Below are positions 1,815 through 46,874 of a DNA stretch of 60,371 nt, in pieces. The notes below the pieces were generated by a model. That model saw nothing but the letters and a program-made list of their open reading frames with translations, was not told the origin of the DNA and ran no database searches. Position 1 is the stretch's first letter; each line of letters opens with the position of its first letter. The position numbers and the translations under genes are program-made. The stretch is from Protofrankia sp. CiT1 (GTDB lineage: Bacteria > Actinomycetota > Actinomycetes > Frankiales > Frankiaceae): the NCBI RefSeq assembly GCF_917627385.1, contig NZ_CAKJTL010000172.1, positions 960-61,330 on the forward strand, written 5' to 3'.

Positions 1815-2013
1815 CCAGCTTGTTACGGGCACTGCCATCGCCATTGCTTGGGGTGATAGACGCAGGTAGACGGGCTGATACGACAAGGCTGGCCATCGCC
1901 GCGGTTTGCGTAGATGCTGTATAAGCCCCCGGGGGCACACGACTGAGGGTTCTGCGTGTTACTCGGCAACGCCTGGTCGCCGCGTCATGCCTGTTGGGAT
2001 AAGTTTTGTCTTA

Positions 2014-2212
2014 GAGCGACCGGCAATAGGGGCGCGGCGTCGCGGGGCTGGGGCACGCACCTCGCCGCATCGCTCCCCATCCATCGCTGCGCGATGCACG
2101 GGTACCCCGGCTCGTCGGTCGCCACCCAACACCTCCGGTGACTCCCTCCACTGCCTCGCGATGCACGCACCCAGTCCCGCTCCTTGATCCACACCCCTAT
2201 TGCCGGGCGCTC
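2014..2212. mobile_element. Inverted-repeat element, family 1 copy A (199 bp, MITE-like)
   Basis: The element begins GAGCGACCGGCAATAGGGG and ends with the near-complement CCCCTATTGCCGGGCGCTC. It is flanked by TTA on both sides (2011-2013 and 2213-2215), a target duplication of the TNA type made by several IS5-group elements. The inner parts GCTGGGGC and CCCGCTCCTTGATCC recur in copy B (20786-20876), and the right half recurs in copy C (44190-44241). It has no open reading frame of its own, so it would have to be moved by a transposase encoded elsewhere. Family membership rests on my alignment by eye. Confidence 0.72.
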
Positions 2213-2215
2213 TTA

Positions 2216-20291: not shown

Positions 20292-20669
20292 GTGGCAGAC
20301 GAAACGCCACACAGCAAGAAACTGCAGGAGCTGATGTTCCGGGCTTGGGAGACCTTCGGAGATGCCCGACATCTCGACAGCGACGACCGGGTGTTCGTCC
20401 AGGCTCTCGCACGGCAGACGGCAGACAGGATCTCGGTCCTGTATGGCGCCAGCTGGCGGGATGCACTGGACTGGGTTGCGCAGCGTTACGTACCCAACGA
20501 CGACGCACCCGGTGGTTCCATCCTGGCGTCATCGAACGGCAGCATGTCATCGAATGGCACCACGTCGTCGAATGGCACCATGTCGTCGAACGGCACCACG
20601 TCGTCGAACGGCACCACGGCGAGCGCGCGACGAAGCGTGGCAGCGGCGGAGTCCACCTCCATCTTGTGA
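20292..20669 (+). CDS. Hypothetical protein with a Ser-Ser-Asn-Gly-Thr repeat tail
   Basis: A GTG at 20292, behind GGGAGGGAG, opens a 125-residue frame. The first 75 residues look like a folded helical domain (KKLQELMFRAWETFGDARHL, DDRVFVQALARQTADRISVL, ASWRDALDWVAQRYVP). The next 30 residues are a six-residue repeat, SSNGTT or SSNGTM, encoded by an 18-bp DNA repeat. I do not recognise the family. The good ribosome site and a sensible N-terminal domain argue for a real gene. It runs opposite to purH and the DUF3017 gene, where folD would normally be found. Confidence 0.6.
   Translation: MADETPHSKKLQELMFRAWETFGDARHLDSDDRVFVQALARQTADRISVLYGASWRDALDWVAQRYVPNDDAPGGSILASSNGSMSSNGTTSSNGTMSSNGTTSSNGTTASARRSVAAAESTSIL
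20529..20618. repeat. Five tandem 18-bp repeats
   Basis: Units resembling TCGTCGAACGGCACCACG occur five times head to tail (20529, 20547, 20565, 20583, 20601), differing at a few bases. They are in frame and encode SSNG(T/S)(T/M). This is a coding minisatellite; there are no spacers, so it is not a CRISPR array. Confidence 0.9.
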
Positions 20670-20785: not shown

Positions 20786-20876
20786 GAGCGACCGGCAACA
20801 GGGGGACGCGGCGTCGCGGAGCTGGGGCACACGCCCCAGCCCGCTCCTTGATCCGCACCTCTGTTGCCAGGTGCTC
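20786..20876. mobile_element. Inverted-repeat element, family 1 copy B (91 bp)
   Basis: It begins GAGCGACCGGCAACAGGGGG and ends CTCTGTTGCCAGGTGCTC, the near-complement, with the inner pair GCTGGGGC and GCCCCAGCCCGCTCC. The first 15 bases equal copy A with one change. TTA precedes it at 20783-20785, but the right flank (CAG) does not repeat it, so one flank has mutated or recombined. It lies between the 20292 gene and purH. Confidence 0.68.
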
Positions 20877-31004: not shown

Positions 31005-31035
31005 TACGTGCCTGACGGCTCTCTACAGGCGCTAA

Positions 31036-31085
31036 GAGGCTCCGATAATAGGGCGCGAGCCGGCCAGTCCTATTGCCGGAGCCGC
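31036..31085. mobile_element. Family 1 short palindrome copy D (50 bp)
   Basis: GAGGCTCCGATAATAGGGCG and CCTATTGCCGGAGCCGC form an almost perfect hairpin whose core (AATAGGG...CCTATTGCCGG) matches copy A. TAA lies on both sides (31033-31035 and 31086-31088), as expected for a TNA target duplication. It could also serve as a terminator for the M23 gene 31 bp upstream. Confidence 0.6.
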
Positions 31086-31088
31086 TAA

Positions 31089-31253
31089 GAGCGTGTTTGA
31101 GATCGTCATTCCGGCTCACCGCGTCCAGGCGCGCCCTTGGCCGCGCTGTCGGCCACACCGATACAACTCATCCGGTGTCGCTTCGGCCTGCCGCCTTGCC
31201 AGGGGGCGCCTGGACACGGCTCACTGATCGAAAGCCCGATCTCACACACGCTC
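31089..31253. mobile_element. Inverted-repeat element, family 2 (165 bp, MITE-like)
   Basis: The left end GAGCGTGTTTGAGATCG matches the complement of the right end CGATCTCACACACGCTC. The arms continue inward imperfectly (GCGTCCAGGCG against CGCCTGGAC), so nearly the whole element is a long palindrome. TAA flanks both sides (31086-31088 and 31254-31256), and the left TAA is shared with copy D. There is no coding frame. The ends and TNA target resemble IS5-group elements. Confidence 0.72.
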
Positions 31254-31294
31254 TAAAAGCCGCCTGCGTTACACGACACCAGCGCCACAGCCGG

Positions 31295-44189: not shown

Positions 44190-44241
44190 CGCACGCATCC
44201 CAGCCCCGCTCCTTGATCCACGCCTCTCTTGCCAGTCGCGC
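44190..44241. mobile_element. Family 1 half-element copy C at a gene end
   Basis: CCCCGCTCCTTGATCCACGC and the run CTTGCCAGTCGCGC match the right half of copy A (CCCGCTCCTTGATCCACACC, ATTGCCGGGCGCTC). TAA follows at 44242-44244. The left inverted repeat is not visible, so this is probably a truncated copy. Read on the minus strand, TTA then G at its edge supply the TAG stop of the gene at 44241-46796. Confidence 0.5.
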
Positions 44242-46796
44242 TAATTGATCGCGCACCACCGGTTGGTCCCGTCCTCGAATGTCAGACCACCCACGTCCTT
44301 GCCCGCGTCGCCCTGTCGCACGCGGTTGAAAAACAACGCCTTGACGTCCTTGAGCGGCCCAGCGGTGAACTGCACATCGGCGAAGATCTCGGTCTCGGTG
44401 CTCAGGCTGTTCTTGGCGATCGTGTAGGTACCCTGCTGAGCGTTCCAGCTGTAGGCCCCTCGCCCCATCGGGATCACGAGCTTGTCCGGAAGTGCCGCCA
44501 GCGGCTTGAGGTCCGCGCTGTCCGCCTGGTAGCAACGGTAGGCGCCATCGATCAGTGCCAGCCCCGCAGCCGCGTCCGGATTACTCGTCGTCGATGTCTG
44601 CGACCCCGCGGACCGCGAGGCGGACGCCACCGACGTCGGCGCCGCCTCCGAGGCGCTCTTTCCACCGGTCACCATGACATACACGCCGATCGCGACGAGT
44701 GATACCAGTACCGCGATGGCGAGCGGGCCCACCCAGCCGTGTCGATAGCGCGCGAAGATTCCGGACGGGTAGTCATCCTCGTCGTCAATATCAATATCGT
44801 CGGTCAGGTCGGTGTCGCCGGTGAGATCAGGGTCGAAGTCGGTCCGGCTCGCCACGCCACGCCGATTACCGGGGGCGTTGCCGCCACGCCTCGCGGAGAC
44901 CGCTGTCCGCCCGCTCAGTGCCCGGCGGCGTTCCTTCGCCCCCTTCGTCGCCATGTCTGAGATCGCGTCGGCGGACGACGCCCGCGCGGACGATACTCGC
45001 GGGGGTGCCGCACCACCGCGGTCCGTCTTCTTCCGGACGGTGGTGGACGGCTTCCAACCGTCGTCCTCAACGCTCTCCGGCGCGGGCTCCAGCCGCAAAG
45101 CCTCGGTCATCGCGGCTTCCACCGGCGGTTGAGGCGGCAGCGCGGCAAGTGGCACGCCCTGGGACAGCGGACCGCTGTCCCAGGCGGGAGCCCGCACGGG
45201 GTGATGACTGTCCCGGTCCAGCTCAGGCGTGCCGCCAGCCGCCGTGCCAGCCGCATGGCTCCCCGACGATGGCGGAGCCGGCGGCAGGGCGGGCAGCGGC
45301 AGGGCGGTCGCCGGCCCCAGGGGTGTTCGCGGCGCGGTGAGCGGATCAACGCGAGGTCCGGCCGGGTCCCGGTGAAGCGGGGGGGGGATCGTGGCACGGC
45401 CGCTGGCATCCGCTCGTCTCGCGGCCGTCCGCGCGGGCCCGTCCGGTGGCGCGAAGGCCCGGTCGTCCGTACCGGAGCGGCGAGGAACCGGCCTGCCTGG
45501 CGGATAGCCGGAGTATCCGCCCGCGCTGGGCTCGGCCGGGCTGGGAGGCTCCGGTAACAGGACTGTCCGGCTCACGGCCTCCGGGCGGCGCCTCGCGTCA
45601 TCGCGCTCCATCCGCCCGGACTCCGCTGTCTGATCGAACGCCCTGTTGCCGGAGCCTCTTTGGCTGCCGGCGTCAACGGGCCGGCCGGAGCGGGCGATGG
45701 CATCACGCCCACCGGCAGCGCCGCGCGCGGATCCCGGGTAATCGGGAGGCTGGTGACCGCTGATCGCATAGCTGTCACCCTGCGGAACGCCATAACCGTC
45801 CGGCTGCTGGCCACCGGGGTAGCCATTCGCGCCGCCAGTAGGCCCGCCTCTCGGCGGACCATCGGCGCCGGTAGGCGTATATCCGCTGCTCCCATGGTCC
45901 GCGGGGCGCCCGGTAGCGCCCGCGAACCCTCGAGGGGGCGGCGAGCTGGCCGTCGAGCCGCCGGCCGGCCGATCCGCGGCCGCGCCGGTGGCGTTCCCCG
46001 GCGGCTGGAACGCCTGCGCACCAGATGCGGCCTGACCAGCGGCGGGGAAGGCCGTTAGCCGGTCGTCGGCTGGCGGCCAGTTGCGCCTGGCCTCAGCGGA
46101 GCCGACAGCCTCTGAACGGTTGGGCCCGAAGCCGCGGGGAACTTCGGGCTGGCGGTCGCGCACGCCGGGATCCCGGCCCGTGCCTGGGCCCGCGGGCGAG
46201 GACTGCCAGGCCAGACCAGCGCCGCGCGCGGAGTGCCCGTCGTCGGCGCTGCCCACTGACAGGTCCCAGCGCCCGCTCCCATGCCCAGGCCCGTGCCCGG
46301 CCGGCGTTCCTGGCAGGCCTGGCACGCCTCGCCCAGGATCAACCTGGTTCGGCAAACCATCCGTCCACGGTTCATGACGGACCGGATACGGCGGGTGCTC
46401 AACGGAGGGGTATGCGGGAGGAAGCGGTCGGTCATGGGTGGAGGAGACGTCAAAGGGGTCGACCGCGGCAGCCGCCGGCCGTGCGGGCGAGCCCGAGCCG
46501 GAGCGCCGGCCAGGGTCACGCTCCGAGGGCTGGTATGCCGGAGCGGTGACATCCCAGGATGATTCTCGGTCCGACGGCTGATACGGACGGTCGTCGGTCT
46601 CGCCGACCCGTTCCACCGCAAAGAAGTCATCCGCGCGTCGCGCCGGTGAACCGGATCGCTCCGATGGCCCCGTCACAGGCCCACCCGCGTCACCGGAATC
46701 ACCGGCCGTCACCCGCGGACGCCACATCTTGGCCGCGCTGTCCCACACCCACGCGCCATCGTCGCTCAACCAGCGCCCGAAGTCGTCGGTGGGCAT
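44241..46796 (-). CDS. Single-pass membrane protein with tryptophan motif and long disordered region
   Basis: ATG 46796 has GGGGGCAGG before it. The N terminus, MPTDDFGRWLSDDGAWVWDS with AAKMWRP, is a short W-rich module. About 600 residues of Pro/Gly/Ser/Arg-rich sequence follow, probably cytoplasmic and disordered. A single membrane helix, VGPLAIAVLVSLVAIGVYVM, begins near residue 680, and a 160-residue extracellular domain ends the protein (SYWNAQQGTYTIAKN-like, GGLTFEDGTNRWCAIN). The C-terminal domain has two Cys residues (YRCYQ, RWCAIN). Its stop codon lies in the edge of element copy C. It shares its N-terminal module with the gene at 46875-48095. The function is unknown. Confidence 0.72.
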   Translation of the reverse strand: MPTDDFGRWLSDDGAWVWDSAAKMWRPRVTAGDSGDAGGPVTGPSERSGSPARRADDFFAVERVGETDDRPYQPSDRESSWDVTAPAYQPSERDPGRRSGSGSPARPAAAAVDPFDVSSTHDRPLPPAYPSVEHPPYPVRHEPWTDGLPNQVDPGRGVPGLPGTPAGHGPGHGSGRWDLSVGSADDGHSARGAGLAWQSSPAGPGTGRDPGVRDRQPEVPRGFGPNRSEAVGSAEARRNWPPADDRLTAFPAAGQAASGAQAFQPPGNATGAAADRPAGGSTASSPPPRGFAGATGRPADHGSSGYTPTGADGPPRGGPTGGANGYPGGQQPDGYGVPQGDSYAISGHQPPDYPGSARGAAGGRDAIARSGRPVDAGSQRGSGNRAFDQTAESGRMERDDARRRPEAVSRTVLLPEPPSPAEPSAGGYSGYPPGRPVPRRSGTDDRAFAPPDGPARTAARRADASGRATIPPPLHRDPAGPRVDPLTAPRTPLGPATALPLPALPPAPPSSGSHAAGTAAGGTPELDRDSHHPVRAPAWDSGPLSQGVPLAALPPQPPVEAAMTEALRLEPAPESVEDDGWKPSTTVRKKTDRGGAAPPRVSSARASSADAISDMATKGAKERRRALSGRTAVSARRGGNAPGNRRGVASRTDFDPDLTGDTDLTDDIDIDDEDDYPSGIFARYRHGWVGPLAIAVLVSLVAIGVYVMVTGGKSASEAAPTSVASASRSAGSQTSTTSNPDAAAGLALIDGAYRCYQADSADLKPLAALPDKLVIPMGRGAYSWNAQQGTYTIAKNSLSTETEIFADVQFTAGPLKDVKALFFNRVRQGDAGKDVGGLTFEDGTNRWCAIN

Positions 46797-46874
46797 GTCC
46801 TGCCCCCCAGGTAAAGGGCGTATATGCCCAGGAAACGCGAAAAAACGGATAGCCCGAGCATACACTAGTGCTCA

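Follow-up and report, generated by a model that had tools for sequence, protein, structure and literature searches.

Mini-elements of the window

The window, that is the whole stretch of 60,371 nucleotides of Protofrankia sp. CiT1 that was analysed, belongs to a genome of 5.02 Mb in 191 contigs. It carries four short palindromic sequences, copies A to D, which the first-pass annotation had described as one family with like ends and a common internal motif, and two further elements that were absent from that annotation (Table 1). Comparison with viral contigs and phages gave no match.

Table 1. Mini-elements, their flanks and related sequences in the window and elsewhere
Feature	Position	Strand	Remarks
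Copy A, full-length type-I MITE, 199 bp	2014..2212	+	19-bp imperfect terminal inverted repeats
TTA target duplication, left flank of copy A	2011..2013		
TTA target duplication, right flank of copy A	2213..2215		
CCCGCTCCTTGATCC in copy A	2176..2190	+	Belongs to the sub-terminal module conserved at type-I right ends
Copy B, decayed type-I copy, 91 bp	20786..20876	+	Internally deleted; flanks TTA / CAG
Copy D, type-II (GAGGCTCCGG...) MITE remnant, 50 bp	31036..31085		TAA at 31033-31035 and 31086-31088
M2-family MITE, 165 bp	31089..31253		Ends GAGCGTGTKTGAGATCG; middle TAA common with copy D; TAA at 31254-31256; newly listed
Copy C, type-I relic, right half	44190..44241	+	Abuts stop codon of ORF 44241-46865 (minus)
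Type-II copy, 114 bp (38 codons)	45545..45658		In frame within the 874-aa ORF 44241-46865 (minus); flanks TGG / TTT; newly listed
M3 family, 117-161 bp	L102:1617-1783; e.g. L149, L208, L211		Ends GTGGTCGCCGCCGGAAG; flanks TTA/TAA

The two ends of copy A are GAGCGACCGGCAATAGGGG and GAGCGCCCGGCAATAGGGG, the latter read on the opposite strand. The type-I end pattern, allowing up to three mismatches, was matched five times in the window versus 0.16 matches expected, and none of 100 shuffled sequences reached five. The motif CCCGCTCCTTGATCC, whose module is present in both the 200-bp and the 160-bp forms of the family, occurred exactly at 2176, 20840 and 44205, and four matches were found with up to two mismatches versus 0.26 expected. 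The fold of copy A is a long, imperfect hairpin (z = -5.7 relative to dinucleotide-shuffled sequences), and synteny with the relatives is broken at its site.

Alignment with copy A revealed 91% identity for the left 45 nt of copy B and 86% for the right 49 nt, and the flanks of copy B retain no target duplication. Copy C aligns with the 160-bp form at 90% identity over 50 nt and lacks the left end; the like ends and internal motif attributed to all four copies hold for A and B but only in part for C. They do not hold for copy D, the ends of which are GAGGCTCC...GGAGCC, which matches type II at 97% over 32 nt and which does not contain CCCGCTCCTTGATCC. Judged from its sequence, copy D is a remnant of a sister end-type and not of type I, and the four copies do not form the uniform family first proposed. 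The flanking trinucleotides reported on both sides of copies A and D, TTA and TAA respectively, were confirmed.

The 874-aa ORF on the minus strand is proline-rich and has no Pfam match. The first base of copy C supplies the G of its TAG stop codon (window 44230-44245), so a reading frame can keep its end intact when insertion occurs at a TNA that overlaps a stop. The type-II copy inside the same ORF adds its codons without introducing a stop and has no target duplication left. Tandem 18-bp units (GTCATCGAATGGCACCA-like) lie near copy B at 20527-20616.

Copy number, size and target sites

Searched across the genome with up to two mismatches allowed, the 19-bp end was matched 182 times on the forward and 186 times on the reverse strand, a pattern of numerous, dispersed copies, versus 1 + 1 for the reversed control; each of four same-genus relatives held 2-9 such end matches in all. 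Copy A alone has at least 40 near-full-length relatives in its own genome with 83-100% identity (40 of 358 candidates scored). The genome carries about 180 of these gene-less mini-transposons.

Full copies, defined by paired ends in 1.88 Mb of sequence, fell into size clusters of 159-164 and 196-205 bp, both short by the usual limit for MITEs (below about 500 bp), with no transposase gene and with terminal inverted repeats. Given this clustering, the 50-bp and 91-bp copies are decayed minorities. The first-pass annotation took the range of 50 to 199 bp as a sign that internal deletion is common; this is true of copy B, which is internally deleted, and of copy D, a deletion remnant, but not of the full copies, and the spread of sizes among A to D is due to decay and to the inclusion of the sister type. 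A de novo scan of the same 1.88 Mb for inverted ends flanked by identical TNA recovered 32 elements, among them 22 of the copy-A family, seven of a family termed M2 and two of a third family, M3.

Reading outward from 220 distinct ends, TNA was found in 164 (TTA 86, TAA 57, TGA 11, TCA 10), a target-site duplication of fixed type, and G followed the TNA in 54%, indicating a CTNAG preference. Identical flanking 3-mers, all TAA or TTA, were present in 25 of 59 paired elements, compared with 2.2% for displaced 3-mers. The many genomic copies with TNA duplications that the first-pass annotation had named as its check were thereby found, at about 180 ends per strand.

Nineteen of the 164 TNA-flanked ends abut GTGGT (10) or GAGCG (9), which follow TNA in the background at 0.1% and 0.37%, respectively. 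Since these are the starts of M3, M2 or copy-A family elements, insertions appear to pile up side by side. An alternative reading of the GTGGT neighbours is a target preference for that motif, as some GTGGTCG neighbours have no recognisable M3 body. For annotation, this means that in about one in eight cases a TNA-flanked end lies directly against the beginning of another mini-element motif and that the repeats build clusters. Several assembly gaps lie in clustered mini-elements. A 512-bp element at L183:8972-9483 has type-I ends, TAA on the left and TTA on the right, and about 300 bp of foreign interior, possibly passenger DNA between MITE ends.

End-types and shared cores

Three end-types were distinguished: type I (GAGCGMCCGGCAATAGG), type II (GAGGCTCCGGCAATAGG) and type III (GAGCGCCCGAGRATAGG). 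The 200-bp type-I and type-II elements are 82% identical over 190 bp with different tips, type III has its core in common with the 160-bp forms, and hybrid elements exist that combine one type-I end with one type-II end. In two relatives (G004 and G007), core pieces were found that carry none of the type I-III ends. The MITE core is probably older than its present ends, since the same cores stand under different tips and I/II hybrids occur.

Members of the M2 family are about 165 bp long and show TNA duplications including TCA and TGA; their right sub-terminal bases resemble type II (79% over 34 nt). Type-I copies are often situated directly at M3 ends, and several scaffold gaps (N runs) fall inside M3.

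Transposases with matching ends

Public genomes were scanned for a stop codon followed by the type-I end pattern. Micromonospora sp. U21 carries two intact 986-bp insertion sequences with TTA duplications and ends GAGCGCCCGGCAGTAGG / GAGCGACCGGCAATAGG. Their transposase of 284 aa matches PF01609 DDE_Tnp_1 (E 6e-11) and is 62-65% identical to those of ISRer2 and of Streptomyces relatives. Both ISRer2, a 1003-bp element of Rhodococcus plasmid pBD2 with ends GAGCGTCCGGCAATTG, and the Streptomyces elements, which measure 982-983 bp and have ends GACCGACCGGCAA.., are flanked by TTA or TAA on each side. Within the IS5 family, a TNA duplication of 3 bp is characteristic of the IS1031 group.

Evidence in the own genome comes from contig C85 (positions 1-85), where 21 codons ending in RPTTRRLK are followed by a stop, by GCCTATTGCCGGTCGCTC and by TTA; here the C-terminus of an IS5 transposase is joined to a perfect 17-bp type-I end, and the contig edge truncates the gene. 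C34 closes with an N-terminal transposase piece fused to a type-I right end, which itself continues into the GGGGCGT sub-terminal bases, and C86 holds a decayed transposase remnant. Within the genus, the end GAGCGACCGGCAATAGG directly follows an IS5-type transposase C-terminus in G001, and N-terminal remnants with GAGTGACCGGCAATAGG were found in G002 and G003. Autonomous elements with matching ends and the same duplication are thus represented by the C85 end and by the insertion sequences of Micromonospora, Streptomyces and Rhodococcus, which agrees with the first-pass proposal of non-autonomous MITEs with an IS5-group helper and points to an ISRer2-like element as that helper.

The own assembly yielded no intact helper, only decayed remnants and the C-terminal piece truncated by a contig edge, nor did 1.88 Mb of sequence contain any TNA-flanked element of 500-3600 bp with matching ends. 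The smallest contig observed is about 2.1 kb, so a collapsed contig of a 1-kb insertion sequence could have been dropped; equally, the helper may be lost from the genome. The only ISAzo13-family element (L095; G000:C183:918-4838) encodes a 556-aa transposase and lies within a CRISPR array with repeat GTTTCTATGCCCTCTTGATCGGGCTGTGGTTAGCAAG, adjoining which an ORF looks like cas2.

The ISRer2-like insertion sequences are like the MITEs in their ends, GA(G/C)CGNCCGGCAA.., and in the TNA target duplication, but they are about 1 kb long and encode a DDE transposase of 283-287 aa, whereas the MITEs have 160-200 bp and encode nothing. Beyond the ends of about 17 bp, no significant similarity was detected between MITE interiors or sub-terminal bases and the ends of the insertion sequences. 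The MITEs were therefore not accepted as internal-deletion derivatives of an ISRer2-like element, their interior having no significant homology to it; on this comparison the copy-A family is a group of end-sharing MITEs and not one of visibly deleted insertion sequences.

Streptomyces homologues and empty sites

Elements homologous to copy A over its entire length (71.6% identity, E 4e-15) lie on plasmids of Streptomyces atratus. Their ends are GACCGACCGGCAATAGGGG and start with GACCG. The third end base is C in both the Streptomyces MITEs and the Streptomyces insertion sequence, and G in the own genome and its insertion-sequence fragment (GAGCG). Ends that co-vary with the local insertion sequence between genera offer a natural test of the specificity of IS5-family transposases for their ends. 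The Streptomyces copies contain an extra inner module (about AACTTCCCCAAGCTCTCGGCTTCGCTCGAGCAGGGGAGACCCC; L288:801-996 on a Streptomyces atratus plasmid), and this module occurs alone on many Streptomyces plasmids.

For one Streptomyces homologue, plasmids were found with a filled allele (NBC_01766, NBC_01267) and with an empty allele (NBC_01014, NBC_01387), the empty site in relatives expected of a MITE. The alleles differ by 163 bp and are otherwise 99.8% identical. The 163 bp read as a 160-bp element, AGACCGG...CCGGTCT, plus three bases, with the boundary one base further out on each side. The filled element is bordered by TTA at its left and by TCA at its right, and the empty allele has a single TCA; the two repeats disagree at their middle base, a discrepancy that calls for the assumption of one mutation. 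At two Streptomyces atratus sites the element was common to all three strains, with no empty allele among them.

Copies C and D are missing from the orthologous intergenic spots in three same-genus relatives, the spacers of which are too diverged to align the pre-insertion bases. Joined flanks searched in the own genome gave no clean empty site and mostly matched other repeats. Of the empty sites proposed as a check in the first-pass annotation, one was recovered, for the Streptomyces homologue; C and D are absent from the orthologous spacers, and an empty allele was found for none of A to D.

Probable mobilisation in trans and competing explanations

We consider it very probable that the copy-A family consists of non-autonomous MITEs moved in trans by an ISRer2-like transposase of the IS5 family. 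In the proposed mechanism, the DDE transposase would recognise the ends GA(G/C)CGNCCGGCAA.., mobilise the element and insert it at TNA, mostly TTA or TAA and often within CTNAG, duplicating the three bases. Such insertion would have produced copies A and B as type-I elements; C would represent a fragmented copy, and D what deletion has left of a sister-type element. The interiors would not be transposase remnants, only the ends being common with the insertion sequence. We infer both that an ISRer2-like transposase actually mobilises the MITEs and what the chemistry of transposition might be, cut-and-paste or copying.

Chance similarity among four short palindromes in one window might be suspected in a GC-rich genome with motifs this short, but a window with five end matches versus 0.16 expected, hundreds of matches genome-wide and at least 40 near-full-length copies at 83-100% identity make it vanishingly improbable, and we regard it as ruled out by copy number. 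That the sequences are structural or regulatory intergenic repeats of the REP/ERIC kind, kept for an RNA or protein-binding function with transposition as their origin only, would agree with the hairpin of copy A and with interiors conserved between the own genome and Streptomyces. A hairpin is, however, expected of any element with inverted ends, Rfam has no match in the window, and the number of ends rises from 2-9 per same-genus relative to more than 180 per strand here, with many TNA duplications intact and with copies C and D at sites where the relatives have none; we hold such a function to be unlikely.

The helper could instead belong to a different IS5 subgroup or to another TNA-duplicating family such as ISAzo13, the match to ISRer2-like ends being convergent, given that the own genome holds further transposases, namely matches to PF01609 and DUF4096 and one ISAzo13 element. 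This we judge very unlikely: the ends of the sole ISAzo13 copy are unrelated (GGGAGCGCAGAAAAATAACACG), no TNA-flanked matching end pair was found around the examined loci of the other PF01609 and DUF4096 transposases, and neither was retained as helper. Against convergence, 17 of 17 bases agree in the ISRer2-like end of the own genome, and the ends of insertion sequence and MITE co-vary between genera.

Mobilisation by an ISRer2-like transposase leaves room for a more tentative idea, to which we give a rather low probability: a long-lived non-autonomous core might change helpers by swapping its terminal modules. It would fit the cores common to types I, II and III, the I/II hybrids and the Streptomyces core with the ends of the local insertion sequence. 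Should every end-type depend on a transposase of its own, the family would parasitise transposons and follow its hosts by exchanging ends. With one core under different ends, how MITEs outlive their helper becomes testable.

Comparison with known systems

The present data document that one MITE family has undergone a lineage-specific burst in an actinobacterium, and they name its likely helper. A literature search on MITEs in Frankia or Streptomyces gave nothing pertinent, and a survey of Frankia insertion sequences (PMC2770080) leaves MITEs unmentioned. MITEs known from other prokaryotes include the Correia elements of Neisseria, Chunjie of Geobacter and QMITE2 of Coxiella (reviewed in PMC10969869). 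Like these, the copy-A family is short and non-coding, with inverted ends, short direct repeats and tens to hundreds of copies, many of them truncated. It differs from them in its TNA duplications, its probable ISRer2-like IS5 helper and the several end-types on one core, and in the presence of this core in two lineages of actinobacteria. ERIC and REP repeats are likewise high-copy imperfect palindromes; what sets the copy-A family apart from them is the record of duplicated target sites, of an empty allele and of a transposase whose ends are identical. What is new is a high-copy, modular MITE family; the kind of mobile DNA is known, and the family is no new kind of system.
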